Source: Buxus sempervirens
Lineage: Eukaryota > Streptophyta > Magnoliopsida > Buxales > Buxaceae
DNA length: 64,000 bases
Reading direction: 5' to 3'
Assembly (NCBI GenBank): GCA_947561395.2
Contig: OX387187.1
Span: forward strand, 35,197,829-35,261,828
Shown: positions 26,100 to 58,020 of the stretch, piece after piece
Numbering within the stretch: the first letter of the stretch is position 1
Layout: every line of letters starts with the position of its first letter
Notes under the pieces: generated by a model
The model's input: only the letters and a program-made list of their open reading frames with translations
What the model was told of the DNA's origin: nothing
Databases searched by the model: none
Program-made: the position numbers and the translations under genes

Positions 26100-27302
26100 T
26101 TAGAAGAACTAAAAAGATCCAGTACTTAGAAGATATGCGTACATTAGAGTGCCCCCTGACTTCATCAAAAAGAACAGAAGATAAAAAAAAAGGGGGTGGT
26201 CGACCAATCCAGACACAAGAGAACCTATCAATCGCATGATTTGCTAATACATCAGCAACACTATTTCTTTCTCTAAAAATATGTTAGAACCTAACTAAGC
26301 TAAAAGGGGGACAAATCACCTTAATTTCCTTGATTATAGCAACTAGATACCAATGGTAATCCTCCTTTTCAAGATTGAGAAAGTTGATCATTGATAGAGA
26401 GTCTCCCTCTATAATAGCATTGGACAAACCCATAGCTCTTGCAAACTTAACAAATTCTAAGGCAACCAATGCTTCACAGTATAATGTCTAATTTGAAATG
26501 CATGCAAAAGCAATTGCACCTATGAATCTACCATCACAATCCCAAATAACTACACCAATCCCAGCTATCCCTAAAGAAGTACGCAATGCCTTGTCAAAGT
26601 TAATTTTGAAGTTATACTTATCAGGGTGTTTACATTGTACCTCAGTTAAGAATTTGCCTGGTGTATTTGGATAGAGGACCTTTTTTAGCCTAGCCGAATC
26701 TTGTTGCAACTTCTAGAAGTGTCTTACCACTGAAAAAATATCAGGAGCATTTTTATCAAATAGTATCTTGTTCCTGTGTAACCATAAAGCCCAACCAAAA
26801 TTGGCAACTATTTTTAAGAAATATATAATATCAAGAGAATGGTCAAATAACTTAATAGAAGCAATATTATCAAACCATTGAAGGAGAGATTCCTGAGGTC
26901 CAAATGATTGAGTAGAACCACCAATAGCAGTTAACCAGACTGTAGTGTAACCACAAATGCTCCACAAATTCTGAACTATTCCGAAATAAATAACATCCAT
27001 TAGAAAAGAGATTTAACTGTGGACTGAGGAGAGTAGCTGTGGGAAGAGCTCCAATCAAAATTTTCCAAAGGAAGAGTTTAATTCGTGCTAGGCATCGCAA
27101 ATGCCAGACCTTCAACCAAATTTCATTAGTATGTCCCATGTTATCTCCCAATAAAAGGAGATAAGAAGATGCCACCGAGAAATTACCTTTAGCAGTAAAG
27201 TGCCAGACCATTTTACCCCCTGAGATAGTGGGTGCGAAAGGAGTAGAAGTAATCTTGCTTATAGTATTAGAATCCCAAAGCCGAGAAAGAAGGTTATAAT
27301 TC
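26100..27302 (-). pseudogene. L1-like LINE ORF2, 3' portion (zf-RVT and RNase H)
   Basis: C-terminal part of a plant L1-type polyprotein. From 27302 downward: GKMVWHFTAKGNFSVASSY, then WLKVWHLRCLARIKLFLWK, the zinc-binding region typical of plant LINE RTs. Farther on is an RNase H-like domain: FKINFDKAL (D replaces the usual DG), GIGVVIWDCDGRF, then LEFVKFARAMG and IIEGDSLSMINF. Frameshifts and stops separate these blocks. The frame joins across the Tat insertion to 43921, since removing the element and one TSD gives uninterrupted sequence. The 3' end is not clearly marked by a poly(A) tail. Confidence 0.85.
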
Positions 27303-28395
27303 TGTTTACACCCTATATAACCAACGAATAAGAGAAGGACACGTGGTGCCGAGGTGGCTTGGTTAGGCCACGGCCCGTAGACTTTGAAGGGTTGAGCCGG
27401 CCGCGTCAGCACGCATACAGAAGAATGCGGTTCGAGCCACGCAAGCCAATAAGACAAAACCATAAATATCAGAAGATCGTGCCATCGGCCGTTCAAGAGT
27501 GGAACTATTTTTAGATCATGGCCGGGCGGTTATCACTTTGAAACAGAAAACTGAAGATAAACAACCACCATGAAGATCGTGCGAGAGTAGGAAGTTGAGC
27601 AACCGTCAAGGAGCGGCTATAAAAGGCCTCAATTCGAAGAGCTCGAGGACACAATCCACACAACCGCAACCGGTTATTATATTATTTTGATCATCCGTGA
27701 TCCTTTATCCCCTCTAACACAGACGGATAAACTAGGACTTCTCTCACTGCTTCCAGTCGCAGTGACATCTTCGACCCCTCTTTACTCCGATTAACACCAG
27801 AATCCTGCCACCGGAGAGTAAGTTGAGGCCGCCCCTGATTCGCAGTTCTGTCTTTACAGAATCCCGAGCAGCCGGTCCCGAGACTCGCTCTGTTCACGCC
27901 AGGTGACTTGTGTATTTTCGGGTAAGCAGCAATCCAAGGTGAACCCCCTGAATCGACTTTGTAAGCAGCCGCCCCCTTCCTCCTGCGCTTATACCCGATT
28001 ACGGCTATAAGACCAGGACAGGCCGGTCCTGCGAGCCCTGTCGGTTTTCTTTTGTACTTTTTGTTTCCATTTTGAGGATTATCTGTTGTCGCTTTCGGCT
28101 ATTTGGCCGATTTTATAATAAAGGGATTTGTGTGCCGTTAGTTGCTTTTGCTTTCGAACACTTACAAGAACCCGAAACGAAGACCGAACCCCTAGTCTTC
28201 ATACCATCGCCTGACCGATTTTATTACAGGTGACTTGCAGTACGACTGAACCGATCCCGGTTCAGATTCGGAATAGGTGCCCGGGGTCAGGAATCGACTC
28301 GAAAATCATTGTATCAAACGATACTGGCACGCCCGCGTAGAGACACATCATCACCACAGACACGTGTCCACACCGGCCCATTTTTTGGAGCAACA
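27303..28395 (+). repeat. 5' LTR of the Tat element
   Basis: 1093 bp, TGTTTACACCC...GGAGCAACA. Contains a TATA box, repeated CAGGTGACTTG blocks (about 27899 and 28228) and TGGCACGCCCG at 28325, identical to the start of the primer site 79 bp downstream. Confidence 0.96.
27618..27626 (+). promoter_or_regulatory. TATA box in the 5' LTR of the Tat element
   Basis: TATAAAAGG, about 315 bp into the LTR, preceded by a GC-rich U3. Transcription should begin about 30 bp downstream. The 3' LTR has the same box at 43139-43147. Confidence 0.8.
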
Positions 28396-28403
28396 TCCCT
28401 TTT

Positions 28404-28421
28404 TGGCACGCCCGGTGGGAC
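28404..28421 (+). other. Primer binding site of the Tat element
   Basis: TGGCACGCCCGGTGGGAC, 8 bp after the 5' LTR. This non-Met type site is common in Tat-like elements. I cannot assign the tRNA with certainty from sequence alone. Confidence 0.75.
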
Positions 28422-28444
28422 CATTAGTCTTTGAAAGAGCACTA

Positions 28445-30844
28445 ATGGCGGCAAGAAGAAGTACTCGGCATGCTGAAAATGCAGCGCCAGAGGAACCTGC
28501 CGAATCTCAGGTAAATCCTCTTTATGCTTCAGAGGTCCCGGAAGAAGGACCTTCGAGTTCTCAGCCGGACCTTAATGAGCGACTTATTCAGGCCATACAA
28601 GGTCTCAGCCAACAAATGGCAGGCTTTGGCCAGGGTATTAACAAAATTTCTTCTGATAATGGTAGAATCCTAGCGGTTTTACAGGAAGGTTTCTCTACAA
28701 TGGCAAGACCGGTCATGATGACCGAACGAGCCGAAACATCGGCTGCTGGGTCAAATGCTCATGAAAGGATAAATATCCCGGAGCAGCCACCGATCATGAA
28801 CCTAGGTGTAAACGGCCGACACGAACAGGCCAACACCGCCGCTTTAAGAGGAGAAATACCTCCTGGTGTCCCAGTTCATCCCAATGTGCCTCCGATCGAG
28901 GTACGACCCATGGGACAAAGGGAAGCACAGGAAAACCATAGAGAAGATATCGGGGTAAGAAATATGGCCGTAAACCGTAATTACATTCAAAATGTAATTC
29001 AAGAAATGATCGGAGATCAATATCACCGACGAATGACTAGGCCAGTTTATAGGAAACCTTACCCAGGCTGGATTGACCAACAATTTGAATTCCCTAGGGG
29101 ATACAAAATTCCCGAATTCACTTTGTTTTCAGGAGAAGGTCAACAATCTACTATTGAACACATTGGCCGATTTACGGTTCAATGTGGAGAGGCGTCCGGT
29201 AATGATTTCCTTAGACTTAGACTATTTGGAAACTCATTGACCGGGCAGGCCTTTACATGGTATATTACCTTACCGGCCAATTCAGTTACAAATTGGGGAA
29301 TGATGGAAGAGAAATTCCACTCCCAATTTTATCGTACGGAGCCTGAAGTAACCATGGTTGATCTTGCCCGGTTAAGACAACAACCGGGGGAATCGGCCGA
29401 TAAATATATTGCTCGCTTTAAATATATGAAAAACAAATGCCGGATTCTTTTACCAGAATCGGAATTTGCAAATTTGGCGTTAAATGGACTACACTTTGAA
29501 CTCCGAAAGAAATTCGAAGGTGAACAGTTCGAAGACTTATTTGAGTTGTCGGCCAGAGCCACCAAATACGAGTGGCTATTACAGGAAGACAACGAAAAGA
29601 AAGTCTCATCTTACGGGTCTTATTACAAGGACCCGAACTTTGAATACGGAGTTGTAGAAGTCGTGGGAAAACAATCAATCACCTGCCCGATTCTTATCCG
29701 GAAAACCAAGGATACAGAGGCAACAAAGGAGACGAGTACTTTTAGCCGAAATTATTCCTTTGACATAAATAAGACGGCTGAAGTATTTGAATACCTCTTG
29801 AAACAGGGATTCTTCAGATTAACCAAAGACCATCCTTTTATCCCCGCCAATGTGGCGGCCAAGAGTAAAGCTTGTAAATGGCACGGGGTGAAAACTCATG
29901 AAACTAATGAATGTACTGTGCTTCGTAATGTGATACAGGAGAATATTGATAAAGGGCTCCTGAAGTTTGCAGAAACCGACAAAGAGAAGATGCAGGTTGA
30001 CACACAACCATTCCCTAAAGAGGTGTCGGCAAATATGGTTACCATTGGGTTGCCAAAACGCACTCCAGCAGTTAAGATCGACCTGGATGGATCTTCCTCA
30101 GGGAAATGGGGGAAAACAGCACAACCAGTGCAGAACCAGGTGAATTTACGACCAAGGAACCATTGGAGGTATCCACCTACACAAGGACGGTCATGGCATC
30201 AAGAGAGGAAAGGTGAAATCTGGGGTGAATGGTGGCATAAGCCCAGACGCGAACCCAGAATGGAAGAAGACAGGAAACCAGAGCTCAATGAAAAAACAAC
30301 AAAGAAATTGGTTTTGGTTCCTTCTGAATTATCTTCCAATCAAGTTGCAACCAAAAAACGACTGGAAACGGTTGCTAAATCCTCAGAGGAGTCTTCCGTC
30401 AATAAAGATACATCATGCAAGATTCCGGAGAAAATAGAGATGTCACCAGGCCTCCTTTGCCAAGACTGCAAGCAAAAAGTGATAGCAGAATACCGGTATT
30501 CCCAATACAAAGGGAAATCAGTCAAGTATGAAGATGCACGCCACACTCAGGGGGGCAAGAAACCCTTGTACTTAACGTCTGGTAGACAAGTAGGCTCGCC
30601 GACAAGGACGGCAGCCACCTACAGCTCCGCTAGGGATAGCGGCTACATGACTTACGAGCAATACAGGATGGTAAACGGGGTCAAACCCAGGATGGTAAAA
30701 CCACCTATTATCCAGGATGGTCACTGGAAAAGATTGACTCATCCTAAATTTCCTTTTCATGCGCAGGCAAGTATCGCAGAACTGACCAGAACGCAGAAGC
30801 GACGCTGGCAGCGACAGCAAGCTAAGAGACGATACCAGGAATAG
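28445..30844 (+). CDS. gag: Tat element Gag polyprotein
   Basis: Nucleocapsid precursor, 799 residues from the ATG at 28445 (MAARRSTRHAEN). The frame is open upstream to 28277, but that part lies in the LTR and primer site, so I choose this Met. Residues about 210-390 form the retrotransposon gag capsid domain (FTLFSGEGQQSTIEHI, GQAFTWYITLP, FHSQFYRTEPE, LARLRQQPGESADKYIARFK). A zinc-knuckle variant CKWHGVKTHETNEC (C-x2-H-x4-H-x4-C, as in other Tat Gags) follows at about residue 480. The C-terminal part is basic and rich in R/K/Q. It ends at TAG 30842-30844, with the same frame continuing into protease. Confidence 0.92.
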   Translation: MAARRSTRHAENAAPEEPAESQVNPLYASEVPEEGPSSSQPDLNERLIQAIQGLSQQMAGFGQGINKISSDNGRILAVLQEGFSTMARPVMMTERAETSAAGSNAHERINIPEQPPIMNLGVNGRHEQANTAALRGEIPPGVPVHPNVPPIEVRPMGQREAQENHREDIGVRNMAVNRNYIQNVIQEMIGDQYHRRMTRPVYRKPYPGWIDQQFEFPRGYKIPEFTLFSGEGQQSTIEHIGRFTVQCGEASGNDFLRLRLFGNSLTGQAFTWYITLPANSVTNWGMMEEKFHSQFYRTEPEVTMVDLARLRQQPGESADKYIARFKYMKNKCRILLPESEFANLALNGLHFELRKKFEGEQFEDLFELSARATKYEWLLQEDNEKKVSSYGSYYKDPNFEYGVVEVVGKQSITCPILIRKTKDTEATKETSTFSRNYSFDINKTAEVFEYLLKQGFFRLTKDHPFIPANVAAKSKACKWHGVKTHETNECTVLRNVIQENIDKGLLKFAETDKEKMQVDTQPFPKEVSANMVTIGLPKRTPAVKIDLDGSSSGKWGKTAQPVQNQVNLRPRNHWRYPPTQGRSWHQERKGEIWGEWWHKPRREPRMEEDRKPELNEKTTKKLVLVPSELSSNQVATKKRLETVAKSSEESSVNKDTSCKIPEKIEMSPGLLCQDCKQKVIAEYRYSQYKGKSVKYEDARHTQGGKKPLYLTSGRQVGSPTRTAATYSSARDSGYMTYEQYRMVNGVKPRMVKPPIIQDGHWKRLTHPKFPFHAQASIAELTRTQKRRWQRQQAKRRYQE

Positions 30845-32032
30845 AGTACTGGATCATCCGAGCCATATTGGTCGTCTAGGTTTGTGGCCAAAAGACGCAT
30901 TCCGAAGCCACAAAGGCTCAAGAAGGGCCCGCCTGATTCACCAATCCCTCCAGAGACCACGCCCGAGCATGATTCCAATGCAGTGACCGAAAGGTTGGTT
31001 TCGGACGAAGAATTGACGGATAATTTCGCCGGAGGAGAGGGAGAACAATTGTTAGTTGAACAAATGTTAACAGAGTACAGTAGGATCTCAACTCCTTCTA
31101 CGGTAGAAATAACAGAGGAATTGACGCTCGAAACTCCCAAAGACGAGATCAGTGAGTCGCTGAGTCAACCTCCATTGAGTGCGGATGCATCAATCGCCGA
31201 AATCTGTTTCGGTCGGATGCCCCCAATACCACTTGACTGTCATATGGTCCTCACTTTACCTATGACTTTTGGGGCCAGCATGGAGTTACCACGTTTAGAG
31301 GAGATCCAGGAGGAGGAAGACCCAGTAGCTTTGTATGTGATTGATCCAGAACATCTCGAAGAAGAGAAAAAAGACCAGAAACCGGCCGATGGTGACAAAA
31401 TCGGTCTGGTGGGAGAGGTATGTTTCGTTGAACCATCCTTAACCATGACTCAACATCTCAAACCTTTATTTATAAAGGCGCACATGAACGGGATCCCTAT
31501 CAATAGAATTCTAATTGATAATGGGGCAGCAATAAATTTCATCCCAATATCCACATTGAAGAAATTAGGTAAGTCTTATTCGGATTTAATTTCTTCCGAA
31601 ATCACCGTCACTAACTTTGCAGGAGGTATTACAGGAACTAGAGGAATCCTCCCAATCGAACTAACGGTTGGGACACGGCAGTCTCTTACGGCATTCTTCG
31701 TAATTGAATCATCCGCCGGATACAACGCATTGCTGGGAAGAGATTGGATCCATTCAAACAAATGTGTACCATCTTCTTTGCACCAATCGTTGCTGTTTTG
31801 GAAGGATGGCAAGACCGAAGAAGTAAAAGCCGACCAACGGCCATTTGCCGTGGATTCCAATGCCGCACATGCATCCCTTTATAACGAAGGGGTAAAACCA
31901 ATTTCATTTAGTGGATATGACAAGAATGGGCAGCCGATCACTTCAAGTTCGGCTATACTACAAACGGCGCAACTACAGATTACAGAAGTAGCCGCAGTCG
32001 CCGAACTCAAAGAACTACCAAATGATGGTTAA
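30845..32032 (+). CDS. pro: Tat element aspartic protease region
   Basis: In the same frame as gag and separated from it only by TAG 30842-30844. It is therefore made either by readthrough of the stop or by separate initiation; no early Met with clear context is seen. The first part is acidic linker. The retropepsin domain lies at about 31450-31790: MNGIPINRILIDNGAAINF (catalytic Asp at 31517-31519, here DNG in place of DSG/DTG), then ELTVGTRQSLTAFFV and YNALLGRDWI. This cleaves the Gag-Pol precursor in the particle. The TAA at 32030-32032 overlaps the start of the RT frame by 11 bp. Confidence 0.88.
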   Translation, partial: STGSSEPYWSSRFVAKRRIPKPQRLKKGPPDSPIPPETTPEHDSNAVTERLVSDEELTDNFAGGEGEQLLVEQMLTEYSRISTPSTVEITEELTLETPKDEISESLSQPPLSADASIAEICFGRMPPIPLDCHMVLTLPMTFGASMELPRLEEIQEEEDPVALYVIDPEHLEEEKKDQKPADGDKIGLVGEVCFVEPSLTMTQHLKPLFIKAHMNGIPINRILIDNGAAINFIPISTLKKLGKSYSDLISSEITVTNFAGGITGTRGILPIELTVGTRQSLTAFFVIESSAGYNALLGRDWIHSNKCVPSSLHQSLLFWKDGKTEEVKADQRPFAVDSNAAHASLYNEGVKPISFSGYDKNGQPITSSSAILQTAQLQITEVAAVAELKELPNDG

Positions 32033-34352
32033 ACCATCAGAAGTCGCAGAAGCCGTCGTAAGAAAGATGACGGCTTACATGCAGGAAGAAAAGATAGGGA
32101 AGTTGCAGCAGGAACAAGAATGGCTGGAAAACGGCGAGATAATGATAAACTCGGCCGAATTCATTAATGAACAAGAAGATGAAAGGGTACAAAACCGGAA
32201 TGAGATTACTCTCGCCGACCTACAAGCAGCACCAGCCAAATTAGAAGACCTAAAGGTAGATACCCAAGATCCATTAGAAGAAATCAACCTGGGGACAGAG
32301 GCGGAACAGAAGCCTGTTTTCATGAGTAAGCTATTACCACCTTCGGTCAGACAAGAAATGAGATTATTGCTAACCGAATATTCGGACTGTTTCGCCTGGA
32401 CTTATCAAGAGATGCCAGGATTGGACCGAAGAATGGTAGAACACAGGCTCCCTATCAAGCCAGAATTTAAACCATTCAGGCAACCTTCAAGGAGGATGGG
32501 TGACGACGTGGTATGTAAAGTAAAGGTTGAAATAGAACGGCTTCTATCAGCCGGATTTATTAGGCCGATACGATATGCCGAGTGGCTTTCGAACGTTGTA
32601 CCCGTAATTAAAAAGAATGGTCAAATTAGGGTATGTATTGATTTCCGCAATCTGAATTCTGCAACGCCCAAGGACGAATATCCAATGCCGATCGCAGACC
32701 TCTTAGTTGATAATGCATCACGGCATAAGTTTTTGTCATTTATGGACGGCCACTCCGGATATAATCAAATCTTCATTGTCGAGGAAGATGTAGCAAAAAC
32801 GGCGTTTCGATGCCCTGGAGCATTAGGAACTTATTGTTGGGTGGTTATGCCGTTCGGATTAAAGAATGCTGGCGCAACCTATCAAAGGGCAATGAATCTT
32901 ATCTTCCATGACATGATCGGTCAAATACTTGAGGTATATATTGACGATGTTGTGATAAAGTCTCAAACCGAAATGGACCATTTGCAGCATTTAAAACAGG
33001 TTTTTGAACGACTTCGTAAGTACAGCTTGAAGATGAATCCATTAAAGTGTGCTTTTGGTGTATCGGCCGGAAATTTCCTAGGCTTTCTCGTACACCAGAG
33101 AGGAATTGAGGTCGATAAAAATAAAGCAAAGTCGGTCATAGAAGCCAAGCCACCAGCCAATAAGAAACAGCTACAAAGGTTGCTCGGCCAGGTGAATTTC
33201 TTGAGAAGATTCATTTCAAACCTGGCCGGGAAGATCAGGGTCCTATCCCCATTATTGAAAATCAAGAATACTGAAGAGTTTATCTGGAATGAAGACCATC
33301 AAGCCGCTTTTGAAGGCATCAAACAGTATTTGGCAACCCCACCGGTTTTGGTGCCACCTTCAAAAGAACGGCCGCTAAAACTTTATATAGCGGCTTCGAG
33401 CGATTCAGTTGGAGTCTTGTTGGCCCAAGAGAACAATCAAGGATATGAGCAGGCCATTTATTACCTCAGTAGATTCTTGACTCCGGTGGAAGAAAGGTAC
33501 ACTAATCTAGAGAAGTTGTGTCTAACACTCTATTATGCAACTACCAAATTACGACATTATCTCCTGTCGGCCAAAGAAATTTTCGTCATAGCAGCCACTG
33601 ACGTGGTCAAGTACATGCTCACTCGGCCTACAGTGAGTGGTAGACTCGGAAAATGGACCCTGACTCTGATGGAGTTTGACTTTAAATATGTACCGCAGAA
33701 AGCGGTAAAAGGACAAGCATTGGCCGATTTTTTGGCCGATCATCCATCTAGTGTGCAGGAAAAAGAGTTGGATATCCCAGTATTTCATGCCAGTTTTTGC
33801 TATGCCGAATTCCAACCATGGACACTGGAATTTGATGGTTCAAAGACAGAGTTTGCTTCTGGGATCGGAGTAGTAATAACTTCACCCACTGGTGACAAGC
33901 ACGAACATGCATTTCAGCTTGAAGAATTATCCACAAACAATCAAGCAGAGTTTGAAGCTACAATTATAGGGTTGGAAATTCTATGGGAAATGGGTGCTCG
34001 AGCAGTTAATATTGTTGGAGATTCCCAACTCGTCTTGAAGCAAATGGAGGGCATATATAACTGCAATAGCGAGTCATTAGTACTATTGCTACGAAGGGCG
34101 AGATTCCTGGCCCAGCAGTTCAATAGAATTGAATTCGAACATCGGCCAAGGAAGGAAAACTATCAAGCTAATGAACTGGCCCAGTTGGCATCTGGACTCA
34201 GGCTGCGCGATTCAGTTAGAACAGTGACCATACAATCTCTCCCCAACTCCGAGAAAAGACCATTTCTGGTGGATTCACTAGCATGTTGTAACCAGACAAT
34301 AAGACAGGATTGGAGAGGTGAGATCTGGGGTATCTTAAAGATCCTACTATAA
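32022..34352 (+). CDS. pol: Tat element reverse transcriptase with two RNase H domains
   Basis: 776-residue frame, +1 relative to protease. RT spans residues about 105-330: FKPFRQPSRRM, VIKKNGQIRVCIDFRNLN, FLSFMDGHSGYNQI, MPFGLKNAGATYQRAM, and the catalytic YIDD at residues 306-309. RNase H1 follows (PLKLYIAASSDSVGVLLAQE, YYLSRFLTPVEERYTNLEK) to about residue 560. A second RNase H starts near residue 595: WTLEFDGSKTEFASGIGVV, STNNQAEFEATIIGLEI, VGDSQLVLKQMEG, ENYQANELAQLASG, keeping D, E, D and a C-terminal acidic position. This dual arrangement defines the Tat lineage. The frame stops early at 34350-34352, after an apparent 1-base deletion near 34325-34332. Confidence 0.95.
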   Translation: MMVKPSEVAEAVVRKMTAYMQEEKIGKLQQEQEWLENGEIMINSAEFINEQEDERVQNRNEITLADLQAAPAKLEDLKVDTQDPLEEINLGTEAEQKPVFMSKLLPPSVRQEMRLLLTEYSDCFAWTYQEMPGLDRRMVEHRLPIKPEFKPFRQPSRRMGDDVVCKVKVEIERLLSAGFIRPIRYAEWLSNVVPVIKKNGQIRVCIDFRNLNSATPKDEYPMPIADLLVDNASRHKFLSFMDGHSGYNQIFIVEEDVAKTAFRCPGALGTYCWVVMPFGLKNAGATYQRAMNLIFHDMIGQILEVYIDDVVIKSQTEMDHLQHLKQVFERLRKYSLKMNPLKCAFGVSAGNFLGFLVHQRGIEVDKNKAKSVIEAKPPANKKQLQRLLGQVNFLRRFISNLAGKIRVLSPLLKIKNTEEFIWNEDHQAAFEGIKQYLATPPVLVPPSKERPLKLYIAASSDSVGVLLAQENNQGYEQAIYYLSRFLTPVEERYTNLEKLCLTLYYATTKLRHYLLSAKEIFVIAATDVVKYMLTRPTVSGRLGKWTLTLMEFDFKYVPQKAVKGQALADFLADHPSSVQEKELDIPVFHASFCYAEFQPWTLEFDGSKTEFASGIGVVITSPTGDKHEHAFQLEELSTNNQAEFEATIIGLEILWEMGARAVNIVGDSQLVLKQMEGIYNCNSESLVLLLRRARFLAQQFNRIEFEHRPRKENYQANELAQLASGLRLRDSVRTVTIQSLPNSEKRPFLVDSLACCNQTIRQDWRGEIWGILKILL

Positions 34353-35596
34353 AGACTAGCAGATCGACCAAAAGGAAAGCTGCCAACTATTTTATTCTGG
34401 GCGATGAGCTATATAAAAAGAGTATTGAAGACATCCCACTTAGATGTGTCAACCCAACAGAAGCCATGTTAATAATGGCCGAGGTACACGAAGGGATTTG
34501 TGGCGCACACCAAGCAGGAGTCAAGATGCGATGGTTATTGCGTCGGCATGGTTATTACTGGCCGTCAATCTTGAAAGATTGTCAGATGTTCGCTGCAGGA
34601 TGTCAGGAATGTCAGAAACATGGACCAGTTCAGAGGGTGCCGGCATTCGAATTGCAAACCATAGTCAAGCCATGGCCCTTCAGGGGGTGGGCAATGGATT
34701 TGATTGGAAAAGTGTATCCTCCTTCGACCGGTCTACACAACTTCATCATAGTAGCCACTGATTACTTCACCAAATGGGTGGAAGCCAAACCTTTGAAAAA
34801 AGTGGAACAAACGGATGTGATTGAGTTTATCAGGGAACAGATAATTCATAGATACGGTATCCCCGAAACCATCATGACCGATTCAGGTACCGTTTTTGTA
34901 GGACAAGAAGTGACTGAGTTTGCCAAAACATATGGCATCAGAATGATTCAATCTACACCCTATTACGCACAGGCAAATGGACAAGCTGAAGCAACGAATA
35001 AGGTGTTGAAAAATATCCTAAGAAAGATGATTGAGGATAAGCCAAGAAGTTGGCATAAACTCTTATCTGAAGCATTGTGGGCGTATCGAATGTCTTACAA
35101 GACGTCTATTGGAACTACCCCTTTTGCCTTAACCTTCGGTCATGAGGCAGTTATTCCGGCCGAAATCACGGTCAAATCGTTAAGGGTGGCTATTCAGAAT
35201 AATTTCACTCCCAAGGATTACACGGAAGCAATGTTAGTCGAATTAGAAGACTTGGGAGAGATGAGGAGGCTAGCCCTGGATCGGCAGAGAGCCCTCAAGC
35301 AAAGGATTGCAAGATCCTATAATCGCCGAGTGAAACACAAATCATTCGCTCAAGGAGATTTAGTGTGGAAAACCCTGCTGCCAATAGGGAAAAAGGATTC
35401 TTTGTATGGAAAATGGTCCCCCACGTGGGAAGGACCATTGCAAGTCAGCAAGGTATTGCCCGGGGGGGCATACCATATACAGTCTTTGGATGGCCAAGAA
35501 AAGAAGATTATCAACGGCCAGTTTTTGAAACGGTACTTTCCTACTCTATGGGAAAGCCGCGAAATCAATAACCAACCTGAGGAAAATCAGGAATAA
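34331..35596 (+). CDS. int: Tat element integrase
   Basis: In the frame -1 to RT. Integrase-type sequence is readable from about 34331 (YLKDPTIKTSR), before the first Met at 34466. That overlap with the RT end indicates a single-base deletion, not a separate gene. The HHCC zinc-binding region is at about 34480-34620 (EVHEGICGAHQAG, GYYWPSILKDC, GCQECQKHG). The DDE core follows: GWAMDLIG, IMTDSGTVFVGQ, PYYAQANGQAEATNK. The C-terminal part has FAQGDLVWK, KWSPTWEGPLQVSKVLP and INGQFLKRYFP. No chromodomain, as expected for Tat. The residues needed for catalysis are present. Confidence 0.94.
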   Translation, partial: YLKDPTIKTSRSTKRKAANYFILGDELYKKSIEDIPLRCVNPTEAMLIMAEVHEGICGAHQAGVKMRWLLRRHGYYWPSILKDCQMFAAGCQECQKHGPVQRVPAFELQTIVKPWPFRGWAMDLIGKVYPPSTGLHNFIIVATDYFTKWVEAKPLKKVEQTDVIEFIREQIIHRYGIPETIMTDSGTVFVGQEVTEFAKTYGIRMIQSTPYYAQANGQAEATNKVLKNILRKMIEDKPRSWHKLLSEALWAYRMSYKTSIGTTPFALTFGHEAVIPAEITVKSLRVAIQNNFTPKDYTEAMLVELEDLGEMRRLALDRQRALKQRIARSYNRRVKHKSFAQGDLVWKTLLPIGKKDSLYGKWSPTWEGPLQVSKVLPGGAYHIQSLDGQEKKIINGQFLKRYFPTLWESREINNQPEENQE

Positions 35597-36423
35597 AATA
35601 AAATATCTACTGTTCGGTACCTGCAACGCCAAATAAATGGTATTGTCAAATCGAGGAGCCGATATACAGTGCGGATTAGACTAAAATAGGAAATCTCTTC
35701 GAGATCCGCTCAGACCCATTGATCTTCTTTCTAACGATCGGTCTATAAATACTAAGGCAATGCTCGCCATTCTTCCAAGAAAGGAAAGAAGAAAAGAGAT
35801 GGCGAAAGATCAAGAGCCGACGACGGAGACGATCGAGGAAGAAGAAGTCAACAAAGCCGATGACTTCATGAGAATGGGCGGGATCGGAAAAGGCGACTCT
35901 ACTCTCGCTGACCCCATCACGGCTGGTCTTCGACCACCGAGTTCTGGGTAGAGACGAGAGTTCTCTCCTCCGACCAGCATTTACGCCGGTCGGAATAGTC
36001 GCCATCCCCCCCTCTTTCCTCTTGCCCCTTTGAAGGAATTGCCCCTCGCTAACACCGTCTATGGTTGGAGTGCGGAGCAATTTCAGGGGCATATCGGCCC
36101 CGGTTGTATTATCATACCCCGGCTGATACATCTGGCCTTGATTGTATGAAAGAGCCAGAAGAGCTCGGCTTTGGTTGTCTGAAAGATCAATGTTGAAATA
36201 AAAACATTCTTATTTTGTTTGTTTAGTTCTAATCTTTCTATGACAAGCAGTAGATATGAAATAAAACGAGTATGTTACGCATCCAAAAAGCATGCAAAAA
36301 ACTACCGTTTAATAAAAGCCGAGGAATCGGCTGAATAAAGTTTAAAATGCCAGCCATATGGCATTATCATAAAAAGTGAATACCGAACAAACGGTATGAT
36401 TGTTTAGAAAAGGTTTTATAACC
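35597..36423. other. Tat element spacer between integrase and the antisense genes
   Basis: A 63-codon sense frame at 35760-35951 (with an inner start giving MAKDQEPTTETIEEEE) and a 151-codon minus-strand frame at 35676-36131 overlap each other. Neither has a recognisable domain, so I do not call a gene. The region presumably holds the 3' end of antisense gene B transcripts. Confidence 0.45.
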
Positions 36424-39178
36424 TTACCTTTCGAACCAAGTCTGAAATCGGGCATGATCATACTTCGCCCGCTCCAATAATAATTGCATCTCAGCTCGAC
36501 GCACCTCCACCTCCCTTTCATCCCTCATGTGCTCCTCCAAACGGTGACGGCTCGATTCGATCAGCAGCATCTGAGTCTGGATAGATTCTTTAAGATGATG
36601 TTCCTCAGATTGTAGCCGAGATAAATCGTCCGAAGCAGTATCTGATGGGTCACCAGCAATAGAGCCCTGGCCAAGAGAATTTTTATGAAGAGACCACCTC
36701 AAAGTCTCCAAATGGCGATTATGACCATATACAGCATGAATTTCTTGACGGAAATCGGAACATCTCACGTTGACAGAACGGAGAAAGTCCATGGCTTCCC
36801 TTAGCTGCGGCACGGCACTGTAAAAACCAAGCATGGACATTAGCCGATCTCCGGTTGAACGATCCCCGCGAGAATTCATCACTATGGCTCTGCATATCAA
36901 CAATCGAACTTCTGACAATTCTTCGTCAGAAAGTTCTTCAGGCTGACGAAGAACAAAAGAGCGGAGTTCGTTCCAACTGTCAAAATCCGGAAGAAATGCC
37001 GGAAGAAGGTCATGAAATTCGGGAGATGAAAGACAACGGTCTACTTCCATGAAGCAAAACCTGACAAATCCGAAGCAAGTACCAGGGAGGGGTCTATAAT
37101 TTTCTTCCTTGGCCACAGGAATTTTTGGCTCAGAAGGTAATTCACCAGAAGAAGAACCAGAGGAAGCAGCACCAGGAACAGTGGATGGACCAGCTTCATC
37201 AACCACGGGACGAGGGAAGAAAGGAGCCGGCCTAGATGCACTAGGCAACGGATCGGTCGAAGGAGTGACAAATCGAGTTGAGGTTGGGGGACTAGCATAA
37301 TGAAATGCACGAGGAGGAGTCGGCATGGGAGTTGATCTACCACTACTCCCAGAATGAACGGGAGGCCCATGCTGAGGACGAAATAAATCGATGTCTTCTT
37401 CCTCGTCCGAAGAATCGTCAGCCACGACGACACGCTCACCTGGATGCTGAACTCGGAGTCGCAAACTGGAACGAGTAACGTAAGCACGACCATCCGATAC
37501 CTCACCAATCTTCCGTTTTTTCAAAGGCGACTGTTTGGAAGAAGGGTTGCTCCGATTGGCAGAAACTTTGGAAGGTCGCCGCCAGTTAAAGGTGACCGAC
37601 GTCTCGGCTTTCTTTTTCTTGCTCTTCACATGGGAGGATCGAGGATCATCTAATAAAGAAAAAGAAAGTCAGACGCGACCGAATAAAGAAGATCAGTTTA
37701 TAAAAACATAAAAGAAAGTTACCTGGGTAACGGGCCTCATAATACCCGCGGAGTTTGCCTATACTCGCTATATCGACCGCATTCGGTCGAAATAGCGCAG
37801 TATACGACTCTGCATCAAGCCGGACAAAGTCAGAGTAAAGCTGAGACCACCATCGACGAAAGGAAGGTTCAGCTGAGGATTCCCGGGGAAGAGGATAATT
37901 GCGGAAGCGAGCAGAAAGATCACGGAACCGAGAAGTTGCTAATGACAGGTAACTAGGGCTCAAAACAGACCGAGAGCCACCATTGGTAGATGAAAACACC
38001 ACCAGAGGAATGCCTTGGCCATAACCAAGTTGCCGACTGACGAAATGCGGCAGATATATTTCCACCCCTTCTCTTCTAGAAGTGGCAGGAGCATCTCGGT
38101 TATGCAAGCCAAAAGGAAGCTCACGGGCAATAAGAAAACTGGCCGTAGCACGTCGGCGAGCTTCTGGAGAAGAATTGATGGCGGCATAAAGGGGAGACCC
38201 ATGAAATTGGTCTAGAGAAAAGTGATGGAATAAAGGAGGATTATTTTCCTGTAGACCTACCAGGAAGAAATCAAGAACAGCCGTGAAAGACAATTAAATA
38301 GGTGTTGTGGTAAGCCAGCGACGGCCGGCATAGTAATAATTAGGAAAAGGATTGTCTACGGCTGTACAGAAAAAGCCGGGAAAGTATTCATAAAACCAGA
38401 ATTGTAAAAACCAAAGAGGGCCACTGGCAACCCCTAATCGGCCGAAAGACAGACTGTGTAAACCACGGTAGACCTGGCTGAGAAAGAAAGGGGCTAGAGC
38501 CAAACGGCGACCATGGGCCAGGGCTACCGCAATACCGGCAAACTCCTTTACCATCTGAGCAGATGGGCCACAGCAGAAAAAATGGCAAAGAAAAAACAGC
38601 AAGAAAGAGCAATGCTCTTGAAGGGAAGGAGGATTATCGTCATTTGGAACTCGCTCCGCACGAACAAAGGTGCCGAAAGCAGAAGAAGCATGAGCGGTGT
38701 TAAAAACAGAAGATGAGAAAACGGATAGGGTAGAATCTACTTCTTCCCCAAGGACCGAAAGACCTGTGATGCAGCAAACATCCAACAGGGTCGGGGTCAT
38801 AGGCCCATGGTAAAAGGAGAAGGTGTTGGAACCCCGACACCAGAAAAATGAGGCCACTCCAAGCAAAATAGGATTGAAGGGAATGTAGAAGGTGGAATAG
38901 AAGATCATCTCCGCCAAACCTAGCCTAACCCAGGTCTCCATATAATAAGACCGTAAACGCTCAACCCATTTGTTCCACTCAGGGGAACACTTAGGCCAGG
39001 AGCGAGGAAGAGTAATCAGATTACCCCATCTCACAGGATCAGAGGCGGTGATCAAGTGGTAGGAAGAGTGCAGGACCTTTGGAGCCTTTTCCGTCTCGTC
39101 ATCAGTGCATGGACCAAGAACAGGACCATCCTCACCATCAAGGAACAGATTCAAGTCGTTAGGGTTGTCGTCCGCCAT
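36424..39178 (-). pseudogene. Antisense gene B: PMD-like protein, one intron, one premature stop
   Basis: Start ATG at 39178 (MADDNPNDLNLF). Exon 1 runs to 37723; an intron at 37722-37650 (73 nt, GTAACT...TTATTAG) joins phase 1 to exon 2 (37649-36424) with the frame intact, about 893 codons. The N-terminal half is plant-mobile-domain-like: SPEWNKWVERLRSYY, IPFNPILLGVASFFW, GSNTFSFYHGPMTPTLLDVC, then SGPLWFLQFWFYEYFP. A single in-frame TAA at 38294-38296 splits it at TPI*LSF, where gene A reads TPAVLSF. Exon 2 has basic KSKKKKAE and PLKKRKIGE clusters, an S/P-rich acidic linker and a helical, charged C-terminus. Its apparent end reads GAAAG/GTAAGG, a good splice donor, so a further exon is possible. 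Function unknown. Confidence 0.75.
37650..37722 (-). other. Predicted intron of antisense gene B
   Basis: Minus strand: CCAG/GTAACTTTC...TTTATTAG/ATGATCC. T-rich before the acceptor. Removal joins ...TAC CCA G to AT GAT CCT in frame, avoiding the stop that ends the unspliced frame. Confidence 0.75.
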
Positions 39179-39518
39179 GATCGATACTAGAAACCAGAGA
39201 AGAAAAGCTCGAAGGAAGAAGAAGACGAAACGAAACAAGGAAACGTCTGCAGGAAGGAGAGCTCGTAATGATTCAAAATATCGAGAAAGGCGTTGATAAG
39301 ACTGCTGTCTTCCCGAAAAAGATGTTGATAGTACGATCGCCTTCCCGAAGAAATCGAAACGGCGGCTCGATATCTTCTCGAAAAAAGCGTTTTTAAGGGT
39401 AAAGATCATACGGATGAATCAAATTGAAAAGATGACTGTGTCGAAAAAGGAGCCGATTCTGACGGCTAGGACAGTTGGCAAAATGGATTCCAAAAAAGAG
39501 TTTAATTCATTAAATGCT

Positions 39519-42500
39519 TTACAAAGAAGTATTTAAAATGGCAGAATATATACGGTCAAAAGACTCTTGGGCAGACCGTCTTTCTTCAACCAAAGTGGAC
39601 CGAAGCAGAGAGGAACCTCGAGCCAACTCTATCTCCGATTTCAGCTCGTGGGAGATCTCGATGCACTGACGGGTCTTCTCTTTCAAGGTGTCATCAATAA
39701 AGTTATGTGTACGAAGAAGTTCCTCCCGTTGATTTACAAGATCAGACCTTCTAGATTGAAACTCAGCAATCTGACGGTCGACTGCCGAAATGTCATCATT
39801 AATAATATTTATACGGTGGGCCGCATCAGTAAACTGATGATGACAAATCTCGCGCTCATTCCTCAACTGTTGCAAAATTTGATATCGGCCATCAACAGAA
39901 TCGGCCGTATTACTCATTTCATGTAATTTGGCCGAAAGATGGTCAAAGACAACTTTATAAGGGTAGAGGAAAGTAAGTTGAGAGAACACCGATTTGACCT
40001 CAGGAGATACAGAAGACAGATCCCGAAGTTGTGCAGCCAATGCCATCACACGGGTAAGAGTCTCTTCGGAAATACCAATTATTCCTGGAGAGAGGAGGCG
40101 AATAATCTCCGATTGGATACTCGTTGGAGATAAGGGCTCAGATGAACCGTCAGATGAGAGAGTAGAACAGACATCGTTCAATATAGTGTCCAATCGGCCA
40201 TCACCAGGGAGTGGTCCCGCAGCAAAAGAAGGAATAAGCGATGAACTGGAACTCCCCAAGTCGATAAGCTTTTGCTTCGACCGATTAATATCAACTTCCG
40301 CTGCTGTAACAGGAGAATCAGAATGAATATCGGCCAAGGCAGAAGGGCCGGAAGGCCCAACAGAAATAGTAGACGTTGCAATCCCAACTACCGGTAAGGC
40401 TGCATTCTGCTCATATCCAGGAGGTAAGTCGGGAGACGGACTTCGTTCTGGAGAAACCTCTCGAATGGATAAATGCTCCTGATCTTCAGGAAGTGCTAAA
40501 GGGGCTGCTGCAGCGACACTACCAGGAGAATCCAATGCTTCGGTAGGAACAGAGAAATTGGCCGAATCAAAAACAGACATGGGATCAACAACCAGATCCG
40601 AAGAAGATTCCATGACATTGGAAGAAAAAGCAGTTAGACCCGAGGAACTCGAAGCCTAGAAGAATGAGGTGTCAGAAAGAAAAATCAAACTAAGAAGATG
40701 AGCAATAAAGATTCAGTACCTTCCGAGGACGCCGTCGTAGTGGGACATCATCGGGATCCTCATCATCTTCATACGGGACAATCGAGAGAGGACATTCTGG
40801 TGACAACGCATCATCTTCGGCCAATTCCCCGGAAGGAGAAGCATGAGCCTCCAAGGTAAGAAACGGCGTTTCACCGGGTGGCCGTATACCTGAACTAATA
40901 TCTTCTTGGACAGGTTCAGGCAAAAGTGCAAGTGGACTAGCCTCCAAAGCTAGAGGCGGAACTTTACCTAATGACAGAAAAATTGAGTGAACATCAAGCG
41001 GATCAGAAGCAAGAAAGATAAGAATATACCTTCTTGGATAGGTGAAGCCGGAGGCTCAAACAGACCCATCCTTTCCAGATAATAATCGGCCGAATAACGG
41101 CAGATATTGTTCCACAACGATTTCCACCAAACACGGAAATCACAGCGACAGTCGTAACGACGAGGAAGAAAGGGAAGTCGAAATTCAACGGCAGCAGCTT
41201 TATAAGCATCTTCCATGTCGGCAGCTTCGGCTACAGTGACAGACGGCCGATCAACAGGTTTGGCATTAACTGTGAACAAACCATCTACTTCAAATAAGGG
41301 AATCCTCTGTTCGCATTGAAATTGCCGGCCGACACAATTGGGCAAGTATACTTCATACCCCGGTTTCTTGTTAATTGACTTCACAGCATAATTTAAATTT
41401 CGAGCCTTCAGAAAACTAGCCCAGATAAGATGCTGCTCGTCAGTTATGTCATCCACCATTGAAAGGAAACCGGGAGAATTTGAGGAGACTTCAAAAGGAG
41501 GAGTAAGAAAATAATGAAGATTGAAAAAGAAACGGAAACATTCGGAAAAAGATAGAACAGCTGGTGTGGCAGCCAAACAGGCGTGGCCACCAAAATCAGA
41601 AGGCATGTTAGGAGTGATCGGTACTTGAGCATAAAACTGGGATGGAAAATAGTGATAAGCCCAAAATTGGAGGAACCACAATGGCCCCCCAGGATTCTGA
41701 AGGGAGCCATGAACAAACTCTTGAAGTGAACGGTATAAAACCGATAAAAAGTAAGGAGCAAGGGCAACTTCATACTCACCCAGAATTAACTTGACCAATG
41801 AGTAATACTCTTTGGTAACTGCTTGGGCCTTGGAACATAATACAAAGTTGCAGAAAAAATAAAGGAGAAAGTAGAAGTGTTCCACCTCATCTGCATAAGC
41901 TGGAGGCCTGAATTTGGCACAGTCCTTGATGTAGGACCGATAAGATGAATGAATTGAAGTCGGTGGAGATTCGCTCTCTGACGGTGGAGGTTCATGCTCG
42001 GACAGCACAAAACCTTTTGGCCGAGAAGATCGTGCCTTCTTGAAAGCCCTGTTATTCTTCGTTGAGGGTTGCTTTCTTTTCTTTTCTACTTCTTTCCCTT
42101 TGTCACCCACTTCCATCGGAGGTAAATGCTGGTAATCCTTAAGGTCCGCCATACCGACCCGGATCTCATGACCAGTCGCGAAGAAACCAGTAATAAAGCA
42201 GACATCCATGACAGTAGGAGTCATCATTCCGCAAGGGAAATTGAAGGTATTGGTGTAAGTATTCCAGAATGAACTCATGGCGCAGAGAAGATCGCGATTG
42301 CAGGGAATAGAATGACACGAAAAGATAATCATATCATAAATACCTGTCTTGCGCCAAACAACGGCAAAACGATCCTTCATGCGGTCAACCCAAGCTTTCC
42401 ATTCGGGGTAAGCAGTCGGCCAATTTCGAAAGCGAAGAGGTAGATGAAGATTCTCTGCGTCAGTAAAGAGTAACGGACCCCTCACTTTCTCAGTCGGGGC

Positions 42501-42608
42501 CTCCAAAGGAGCATTACTGGCACAAATGAAGGGGCCTACAGATATCGAGTTGCCGAAAACTTCAACTGTAGAAGGATAGTGTATGAGAGTGCCCGCCATT
42601 GAAGACAA
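39519..42608 (-). CDS. Antisense gene A: PMD-like protein, three exons
   Basis: Spliced model: exon 1 42608-41030, exon 2 40967-40720, exon 3 40655-39519, giving 988 codons including stop with no internal stop. Introns are 62 and 64 nt with GT...AG ends. Start is MSSMAGTL, with a second Met three codons in. Residues about 60-150 and 230-340 are plant-mobile-domain-like: YPEWKAWVDRMKD, NTFNFPCGMMTPTVMDVC, then GGPLWFLQFWAYHYFP. A basic KKRKQPSTKNNRAFKKAR between them could be a nuclear localisation signal. The C-terminal third is predicted helical and charged (QQLRNEREICHHQF, KEKTRQCIEISHELKSEIE), perhaps a coiled coil. PMD-family proteins act in transposon silencing or are carried by transposons; the role here is unknown. 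Confidence 0.8.
40656..40719 (-). other. Predicted intron 2 of antisense gene A
   Basis: Minus strand: CGGAAG/GTACTG...TTCTTCTAG/GCTTCG. 64 nt, T-rich, phase 0. Both joined frames are otherwise closed by stops inside the intron. Confidence 0.78.
40968..41029 (-). other. Predicted intron 1 of antisense gene A
   Basis: Minus strand: AAGAAG/GTATATTC...TCATTAG/GTAAAG. 62 nt, phase 1. Splicing makes a Gly codon from G and GT and continues KVPPLALEASPL in the exon 2 frame. Confidence 0.8.
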
Positions 42609-42667
42609 AGAGGAAGAAAAGACAAACAGTCAAAAAGAAAGAGTAAAGTAAAATCTCGGCTGTGATA

Positions 42668-42674
42668 CTTTATA
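42668..42674 (-). promoter_or_regulatory. Candidate TATA box for antisense gene A
   Basis: Minus strand TATAAAG in CTTCTATAAAGTATCA, 60-70 bp upstream of the start codons at 42608/42599. That spacing would leave a 5' leader of about 30-40 nt. It lies inside the element, not in the LTR, so the antisense genes appear to have their own promoter. Confidence 0.6.
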
Positions 42675-42810
42675 GAAGGCGAAATCCGAAAGGTTTCATC
42701 ATTACGATCGTAGGGAAACGGCGCGATCTTTTCACATCAAACGACGGACAAATTTTGAAAAACCCGAAAATACTTACTCATCACACCGGCCGATGACGGC
42801 GTCACAAGTA

Positions 42811-42823
42811 AGTAGGGGGGCAA
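42811..42823 (+). other. Polypurine tract of the Tat element
   Basis: AGTAGGGGGGCAA immediately precedes the 3' LTR. Confidence 0.85.
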
Positions 42824-43915
42824 TGTTTACACCCTATATAACCAACGAATAAGAGAAGGACACGTGGTGCCGAGGTGGCTTGGTTAGGCCACGGCCCGTA
42901 GACTTTGAAGGGTTGAGCCGGCCGCGTCAGCACGCATACAGAAGAATGCGGTTCGAGCCACGCAAGCCAATAAGACAAAACCATAAATATCAGAAGATCG
43001 TGCCATCGGCCGTTCAAGAGTGGAACTATTTTTAGATCATGGCCGGGCGGTTATCACTTTGAAACAGAAAACTGAAGATAAACAACCGCCATGAAGATCG
43101 TGCAAGAGTAGGAAGTTGAGCAACCGTCAAGGAGCGGCTATAAAAGGCCTCAATTCGAAGAGCTCGAGGACACAATCCACACAACCGCAACCGGTTATTA
43201 TATTATTTTGATCATCCGTGATCCTTTATCCCCTCTAACACAGACGGATAAACTAGGACTTCTCTCACTGCTTCCAGTCGCAGTGACATCTTCGACCCCT
43301 CTTTACTCCGATTAACACCAGAATCCTGCCACCGGAGAGTAAGTTAAGGCCGCCCCTGACTCGCAGTTCTGTCTTTACAGAATCCCGAGCAGCCGGTCCC
43401 GAGACTCGCTCTGTTCACGCCAGGTGACTTGTGTATTTTCGGGTAAGCAGCAATCCAAGGTGAACCCCCTGAATCGACTTTGTAAGCAGCCGCCCCCTTC
43501 CTCCTGCGCTTATACCCGATTACGGCTATAAGACCAGGACAGGCCGGTCCTGCGAGCCCTGTCGGTTTTCTTTTGTACTTTTTGTTTCCATTTTGAGGAT
43601 TATCTGTTGTCGCTTTCGGCTATTTGGCCGATTTTATAATAAAGGGATTTGTGTGCCGTTAGTTGCTTTTGCTTTCAAACACTTACAAGAACCCGAAACG
43701 AAGACCGAACCCCTAGTCTTCATACCATCGCCTGACCGATTTTATTACAGGTGACTTGCAGTACGACTGAACCGATCCCGGTTCAGATTCGGAACAGGTG
43801 CCCGGGGTCAGGAATCGACTCGAAAATCATTGTATCAAACGATACTGGCACGCCCGCGTAGAGACACATCATCACCACAGACACGTGTCCACACCGGCCC
43901 ATTTTTGGAGCAACA
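42824..43915 (+). repeat. 3' LTR of the Tat element
   Basis: 1092 bp. Differs from the 5' LTR by six transitions and one missing T in the run before GGAGCAACA. Followed by TSD AATTC. TATA box at 43139-43147. Confidence 0.96.
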
Positions 43916-43920
43916 AATTC

Positions 43921-56941: not shown

Positions 56942-57414
56942 CACCCAGGGGAGCCAGACAATGGTGCAGTATGAGTCCTGATTTTTCGCCTTGTCCCGAT
57001 TTGCACCCCATATGGTGCAGAATGAGAGGAGATTAATTGCTTTTCTAGTGGTGTTTAAGGCTTGGCATACGGAGTATGTTGACGGTATTTCTGTGCACCG
57101 AACTTAAGGATATAGTGCGTCAGGCCACAAGAGCTGAGAGAGATATCGAGACTCAGGCCACTTTGAGCAGAGTTAGACAGCCAATGAGGCCGGTAGAGCA
57201 AAGAGGCTTCCTTAGTGGGAGCAAGAGGCCGAAGGAGTGGACTAAAGGGGAGTCATTTGGCAGTCAGACCTACATACCACCTCAAAGAGATTGTGCCAAA
57301 TGTGGTAGGTATCATGTCCCGGGCCCATGTTTTGCAGCTCCAAGTACTTGTTACAGATGTGGTTAGGCAGGCCATCGGATTCATGAGTGCCGATACTCTC
57401 CCACATATCAGCCT
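56942..57414 (+). pseudogene. gag: Chromovirus gag, second part with zinc knuckle
   Basis: Resumes after the Cassandra TSD with TQGSQTMVQYES, then a stop, FFALSRFAPHMVQNERRL, then a frameshift. From 57076: LKDIVRQATRAERDIETQA, a basic linker, and CAKCGRYHVPGPC followed by CYRCG*AGHRIHEC, where a TAG at 57364-57366 replaces the residue before AGH. These are the two cysteine clusters typical of Tekay/Del gag. Confidence 0.85.
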
Positions 57415-58020
57415 TTGGCAGTGAGATGGCCAAATGCACCAGCACCAACACCTGCACTTGCTGCTACTCAGAGAACCCCATTCCAGCAGCTAGCCCAGAG
57501 AGCACCTACGGGACAAAGAACCCAGGGCAGAGGAGCTGCGCAAAGGGGAGGACAGAGACAGGTAGTACCTACTCCACAACCGCAGCAAGCTAGAGTATAT
57601 GCAGTAGAGGCACATGAGGAGGAGCGTGAGCCTAAGCCTATGGCTGAGATTGAGGTTGATCCGGAGGCACCTAAGCGGATTGGAGGTATTCTTTTTACTT
57701 GTGGTAGATCAGCTTGTTGTTTATTTGATTCTGGTACCTTACATTCTTTTATTTCGCCTACATGTGCACGACAAATTGGTTTGTCACCGATTGATATGGA
57801 TGTTATGTTGTTTGTGCACACACCACTGGGGGAGTCAATTGGAGTTAAATTAGTGTATAGAGATTGCATGATTAGACTGGGGAGATTAGAGCTGCCAAGA
57901 GATCTGATAGAACTAGTGATTGGACGATTTGACGTGATTTTGGAGATAGATTGGTTGTTTACACTTCACGTCATTCTGGATTGCTATAGTGGGACTGTGA
58001 TAGTCAGTGGGCCAAATTAG
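57415..58020 (+). pseudogene. pro: Chromovirus protease
   Basis: An intact 201-codon frame. The first 70 residues are Gln/Pro/Ala-rich linker. The retropepsin core follows: GGILFTCGRSACCLFDSGTL with catalytic DSG, HSFISPTCARQ, then DLIELVIGRFDVILEIDWLF, where the family reads FDVILGMDWL. The conserved Ala-Thr after DSG has become Thr-Leu. Ends TAG at 58018-58020. Confidence 0.88.

Follow-up and report, generated by a model that had tools for sequence, protein, structure and literature searches.

Two intron-containing antisense PMD genes under purifying selection in a Tat-clade retrotransposon of Buxus sempervirens

Why would a long terminal repeat (LTR) retrotransposon carry intron-containing genes on the strand opposite its own coding strand, and do such genes serve it? 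The question is raised by a 64,000-nt stretch of the Buxus sempervirens genome (assembly GCA_947561395.2, contig OX387187.1, positions 35,197,829 to 35,261,828; hereafter the window, in whose coordinates all positions are given). It holds a complete 16.6-kb LTR retrotransposon of the Tat clade (27303-43915). Between the integrase and the 3' LTR of this element, on the minus strand and opposite gag-pol, lie two genes with introns, here called A and B, each encoding a plant mobile domain (PMD). We consider it very probable that A and B are a real, element-encoded pair of accessory genes.

Two intron-containing genes opposite gag-pol

Gene A (42599-39519, minus strand) has three exons and encodes an open protein of 984 aa. 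Its exon 1 (41030-42599) contains the ATG and the PMD domain (residues 86-443), and is followed by a 62-nt intron (40968-41029), exon 2 with an acidic, S/P-rich linker (40720-40967), a 64-nt intron (40656-40719), and exon 3 with a further S/P-rich linker, a charged C-terminal region and the stop (39519-40655). After a 338-bp spacer (39179-39516), gene B (39178-36424, minus strand) follows with two exons and 893 codons. Exon 1 of B (37723-39178) contains the ATG, the PMD domain and, in the window copy, one in-frame stop at residue 295 (38294-38296). A 73-nt intron (37650-37722; 68 nt in one copy) separates it from exon 2 (36424-37649), which encodes basic clusters resembling nuclear localisation signals (NLS), an S/P linker, a charged C-terminal region and the stop. 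All three introns have GT...AG ends and their frames rejoin exactly, as had been proposed in an earlier note made from the sequence alone. That note had also described gene A as open over 987 residues; the openness holds, and the length is corrected to the 984 aa given above.

The Pfam PMD model (PF10536) matches gene A with E=1.7e-29 (103.6 bits) and the N-terminal piece of gene B with E=3.1e-26 (92.8 bits), both above the gathering score of 34.9 bits, which bears out the claim of two minus-strand PMD-like genes at this place. The second piece of B alone reaches 17.5 bits (E=0.0024), under the Pfam cut-off. The motifs NTF.F..G.MTPT..DVC.ITG and GPLWFLQFW.Y.YFP, previously listed as common to the two genes, are indeed present in both. 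Aligned over 270 columns, the two proteins show 31% identity (E=9e-34). They share one plan, in which the PMD domain is followed by a linker with many S/P and charged residues and then by a charged C-terminal region. Similarity between the two C-terminal parts was sought and none was detectable. Basic NLS-like motifs were found in both proteins. A PDB sequence search with exon 1 of gene A gave no matches at E<=1. A protein database search with A gave none among 3365 candidates at E<=0.001; it returned no PMD protein at all, so the database is presumably poor in plants and the result uninformative.

Copies in the genome and selection on both genes

A search of the 676-Mb genome that holds the window with a piece of gene B yielded 40 listed places among 226 candidates, all at least 96% identical, and at least 26 of these 40 have an A-like match at the right distance. 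In a genome-wide PMD search, 117 rows were scored among 8447 candidates. By profile range, 74 of the 117 were judged A- or B-like (the other 43, mostly from other families, were left out), and these include at least 12 A-B pairs 3.4 kb apart. For comparison between copies, the window was combined with 20 of the other 39 places listed, those most similar to it (n=21), a non-random set of young copies. All three introns keep GT..AG, and both genes keep their ATG, in every one of the 21. Gene A is uninterrupted in 16 copies, gene B in 17 and both genes in 13, an intactness that is that of young copies.

One copy (L056; G000:C11:29802396-29803619) carries an in-frame A::B fusion that joins the first ~250 residues of A to B from residue ~202 onward. 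The junction falls within an 11-nt stretch shared by the two genes, ~3.3 kb between them have been lost, and the flanks are 95-96% like the window.

Changes among the 21 copies were split into those found in a single copy and those shared by several. Shared changes in gene A comprise 20 nonsynonymous (N) and 36 synonymous (S) ones (dN/dS 0.22, P=3.5e-8), and those in gene B 17 N and 35 S (dN/dS 0.20, P=1.2e-8); a cruder weighting gives 0.196 and 0.175. Shared changes depend on subfamily structure, a dependence that alone does not lower N relative to S. Single-copy changes show weaker ratios (0.50 for A and 0.72 for B), as expected for dead copies. The same shared changes give ratios of 1.5-3.8 when read in the two remaining forward frames. 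The antiparallel frame that has its third positions in common with the predicted one gives 0.31, the expected mirror, and the true frame is lower still.

Among the large parts of the proteins, the PMD domain of gene B is the most constrained (3 N:17 S), and the linkers are the least (ratios 0.29 and 0.38). The shared changes number 1 N:6 S in the C-terminal 154 codons of gene A and 2 N:6 S in the C-terminal part of gene B. Two copies of intermediate divergence (L050 and L054) give a dN/dS of 0.16-0.18 at a dS of 0.12 for exon 1 of gene B, and of 0.33 for 299 codons of exon 3 of gene A. The last 223 codons of the integrase, compared in eight copies, have 3 N:7 S (ratio 0.17; small numbers, with gag and reverse transcriptase left out), so that the constraint on A and B is of the same order as that on the integrase end.

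Purifying selection has thus kept both A and B working. The dN/dS check that the earlier note had called for gives ratios that are not near 1, and its proposal that gene A may help the element is supported by this selection, which acts on both genes and suggests that A and B alike help the element to survive in its host. Its description of gene B as having one stop is correct for the window. The further suggestion that B may be dying or non-functional applies to this copy only. Because B is uninterrupted in 17 of 21 copies and is under purifying selection, the stop is damage to the window copy and not decay of the gene, and a decaying gene B is ruled out. A third antisense open reading frame (ORF), at 35676-36209, was considered as a gene and rejected, with 9 N:3 S and a ratio of 1.2 in eight copies.

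A sister family and the origin of the pair

At one locus (L059), which belongs to a diverged sister family, we identified both genes in the same order and the same antisense orientation, with introns that match those of the window. The integrases are 76-79% identical over the last ~120 residues, where the compared stretch ends. For gene A, the identity is 41-53% in the PMD parts and 34-44% in the C-terminal parts (compared as separate pieces, since this gene A is interrupted elsewhere too); for gene B, it is 55% in the PMD domain and 35-36% in the C-terminal parts. The three L059 introns (70, 62 and 68 nt) have GT..AG ends at places matching those of the window, and the frame is rejoined in phase 1, just as it is in the window, at intron 1 of gene A and at the intron of gene B. 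Between the two families, pS is 0.68-0.85, near saturation, and pN is 0.29-0.41. The antisense pair is more than a chance arrangement, because its splice ends are kept in 21/21 copies, because selection is seen only in the predicted frame and in the frame that mirrors its third positions, and because the layout recurs in L059.

A PMD tree has the form ((A, L059 A),(B, L059 B)), with the L059 A row being the C-terminal piece of its PMD domain. Support is 100/98 for A, 99/100 for B and 100/98 for the group of A, B and their sisters, which stands apart from three other PMD families of the genome. Moreover, a phase-1 intron follows the PMD domain in both genes, 33 residues (A) or 43-45 residues (B) past a conserved WW, in the window as well as in L059. 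The tree topology implies that the duplication predates the split of the two families and that both daughters were kept; it supports an old tandem duplication of a single antisense PMD gene whose two copies were both retained. The earlier note had left an old duplication and separate acquisition side by side. The former is upheld and the latter disfavoured.

One-gene and two-gene relatives, both of which had been suggested as worth seeking, are present in this genome. In addition to the two-gene locus L059, there is the family F1 (L036 with L060; G000:C1:6167700-6174080), in which a single PMD ORF, antisense and unspliced, spans 985 codons from stop to stop. It ends ~330 bp past the integrase stop of another element with two ribonuclease H (RNase H) domains, whose integrase is 42% identical to that of the window. 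No second PMD was found in the ~970 bp before this ORF, a stretch that stops short of the 3' LTR.

Five repeats that are 96-99% alike over most of the length compared (L029-L033; ORF up to 236 aa) have the best PMD scores among the 117 listed rows (E down to 1.9e-48), and stand well apart from A and B and from the remaining families. In the non-coding interval that separates the stops of integrase and gene B, two short blocks (35833-35891 and 36116-36161) have no variable sites in eight copies and are 80-85% identical in L059.

Proposed function and alternatives

We propose that one antisense PMD gene was duplicated in tandem to give A and B, and that both have been retained since before the sister families split. 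Antisense promoters would read the integrated DNA, and the transcripts would be spliced in vivo. Gene A may be transcribed from a TATA-like site (CTATAAAG; 42668-42675, minus strand) just inside the 3' LTR and ~70 bp before its ATG. The site is a sequence match only; its TATAAA is kept in 21/21 copies. Gene B is probably driven from the A-B spacer, which is unusually unchanged between lineages: its 338 bp hold 2 shared changes, whereas introns and outer flanks together hold 25 in 624 bp (a post hoc contrast; Fisher P=0.0016), and its single-copy changes are ordinary in number (17/338 vs 26/624). The spacer is likely to serve as promoter and leader of gene B and as terminator of gene A. The introns would persist as the replicating sense RNA carries their splice signals backwards. 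Antisense placement thus explains the retention of spliced genes, because the RNA that is reverse-transcribed is the sense strand, from which these introns are not removed. The converse is exploited in retrotransposition reporters, whose intron is placed in the element's own sense and is lost en route (PMC12786077).

The products of A and B are probably nuclear, and our best guess is that they would act there as an accessory pair on host silencing or on transcription of the element. That they do so by counteracting silencing is a guessed step, which we put forward tentatively. A more specific form, in which A and B pair as a heteromer and so mimic or poison the host MAIN-MAIL1-PP7L silencing machinery, itself a paired PMD system, so that the element would encode an antisense, spliced, two-subunit anti-silencing PMD complex, is rather improbable.

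Several observations weigh against the proposal or parts of it. The gene A of L059 is interrupted, and the frame at its intron 2 is not rejoined as that copy stands. The 12 rows of the PMD tree all come from a single genome, and the tree has long branches, which the program cautions come together. The NLS-like and TATA matches are weak evidence for nuclear products and for a promoter. With the one-gene F1 element in the same genome and the A::B fusion in L056, two separate genes are not a strict requirement in every lineage. Identity of A and B to L029, the sole PMD row outside the long-ORF families, is just 21-23%, so that a mechanism in common with MAIN/MAIL1 is a guess. An AlphaFold model built with three window rows has a mean pLDDT of 30.5 and a pTM of 0.19, and gives no usable fold.

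A function in nuclear entry or integration ranks close behind anti-silencing in likelihood. A and B would then be nuclear proteins in the service of replication, importing, chaperoning or tethering the pre-integration complex, and their charged C-termini would be the parts that interact. The NLS-like motifs and the selection on both C-terminal regions fit such a role, which has been proposed for antisense ORF proteins in general (PMC7264820). However, separate antisense promoters on integrated DNA are an odd route for a particle component, and no Pfam match links the C-terminal parts of A and B to any import, chaperone or tethering factor.

It is improbable that A and B stem from separate captures, each from a different source, and not from a duplication. 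The absence of detectable similarity between their C-terminal halves would agree with separate capture, as would the description of extra ORFs as either very fast-evolving or independently acquired (PMC6317226); against this stand the 100/98 grouping of A and B apart from the three other PMD families and the phase-1 intron that both genes have in both families.

A still less likely explanation is that the antisense RNA itself matters, through sense-antisense dosage control of the element, with the proteins secondary. The possibility is raised in PMC7264820, and 175 phased small interfering RNA (siRNA) loci arise from PMD genes in tea (PMC10673657). Selection nevertheless acts on amino acids in the predicted frame, and an RNA function would neither favour synonymous over nonsynonymous changes nor preserve the two proteins in a sister family that has diverged.

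That A and B are passengers without selection, open because the insertion is recent, would suit the nearly identical LTRs and the 8 of 21 copies in which A, B or both are broken, but is refuted by the shared-change ratios and by the excess of pS over pN against L059.

The element and its surroundings

The 5' LTR (27303-28395, plus strand, 1093 bp, TG...CA) and the 3' LTR (42824-43915, plus strand, 1092 bp) are bounded by a 5-bp target site duplication, AATTC, at 27298-27302 and 43916-43920; with TG..CA LTRs and this duplication the element is complete. The two LTRs differ by 6 mismatches and one indel across ~1,092 bp, and the element had rightly been called young. In grasses the substitution rate is 1.3e-8 per site per year, and at this rate the insertion would be about 0.2 million years old.

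On the plus strand (28446-35596), ORFs and Pfam matches give gag, protease, reverse transcriptase with dual RNase H, and integrase, in that order (Retrotrans_gag 8.7e-13, RVT_1 1e-28, RT_RNaseH 1.3e-20, RVT_3 2.1e-19, rve 6.5e-10); matches for the protease are under the cut-off, the best at 1e-4. The pol ORF has RT_RNaseH at residues 459-562, RVT_3 at 614-732 and the integrase next. We take the RVT_3 match to be the additional RNase H (aRH) of Tat elements. Because this second, RVT_3-type RNase H is placed between RNase H and integrase, we assign the element to Tat, in agreement with the label it had been given. In angiosperm Tat elements (Ogre or Retand), the aRH sits in the same position (PMC6317226).

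Neumann et al. 2019 (PMC6317226) give the share of Ogre elements with PMD as 57%, and the PMD cargo hints at that lineage; Ogre and Retand both stand. PF04195 (TRP28), typical of Retand, has no Pfam match at E<=1 in gene A or in the pieces of gene B. Compared with Ogre, whose gag-pro and RT-INT ORFs lie ~274 bp apart, separated by an intron, the stop-to-stop ORFs of the window copy, which may be damaged, overlap (30845-32032 and 31992-34352). A stop at 30842-30844 separates gag from protease in this copy, and the frame changes at the protease/RT boundary and at the boundary of RT-RNase H and integrase (about 34322-34352).

Sequence resembling a long interspersed nuclear element (26870-27302; zf-RVT, E=1.7e-10) adjoins the 5' LTR or hosts the element. 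Elsewhere, the window has Copia-like pieces (14389-15540 and 19579-20556), a gag piece (12384-13013) and a retroviral protease piece (57367-58020).

Relation to known systems and implications

PMD domains in plant gypsy elements have already been published (PMC5418596; PMC6317226). Like those elements, ours bears a PMD-domain gene; it differs in having a tandem of two spliced PMD genes that have diverged from each other, and selection has been measured on both. An anti-silencing role was speculated for PMDs captured by Mutator-like elements (Ikeda et al. 2017, PMC5418596), and a retrotransposon with a PMD pair of its own would fit that idea. Host PMD proteins have roles in silencing of transposable elements, and MAIN and MAIL1 interact (PMC5418596, PMC7156037). 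MAIN/MAIL1 with PP7L (host PMD-C) resemble A and B as PMD proteins of which two interact in one pathway. In contrast, they are host genes that silence transposable elements, and are likened to A and B by description only. The tea loci mentioned above suggest that hosts may target PMD genes with small RNAs (PMC10673657).

Antisense ORFs of Retand (TRP28, PF04195) are described between pol and the 3' LTR in most copies, numbering 104 in 63 clusters, so that more than one per element occurs (Vicient 2025, PMC11963269). The stretch from pol to the 3' LTR is 2.9-6.6 kb in Retand according to the same source, vs 7.2 kb in the window. Unlike the Retand ORFs, A and B carry PMD and not PF04195, and their introns are shown by comparison of copies.

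VANDAL elements are DNA transposons, and their anti-silencing proteins are, to our knowledge, unrelated to A and B. They likewise bear additional genes, which protect them from silencing (PMC11728184), a role only guessed for A and B. GENE23 of maize Grande is an antisense accessory gene with its own promoter and a nuclear product, as told in PMC7264820; the account drawn on here mentions neither a PMD nor a second gene.

No antisense PMD gene, and no PMD pair in one element, was found described in the open-licence literature searched, a scope outside which the 2011 survey of extra ORFs (Steinbauerova et al.) falls. As far as that literature reaches, an element with two diverged, spliced antisense PMD genes, recurring in a sister family and both under purifying selection, is new.

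Antisense extra genes are widespread in Tat elements, and the prior work, as represented in the sources cited here, rests mainly on ORF presence, domain or localisation. The pair described here offers a concrete test system: a single genome holds uninterrupted copies, and each of the two proteins has an upstream region of its own. It shows how antisense placement lets a retrotransposon retain intron-containing genes, and it has a bearing on whether the PMD genes of retrotransposons act as opponents of the PMD silencing genes of the host.

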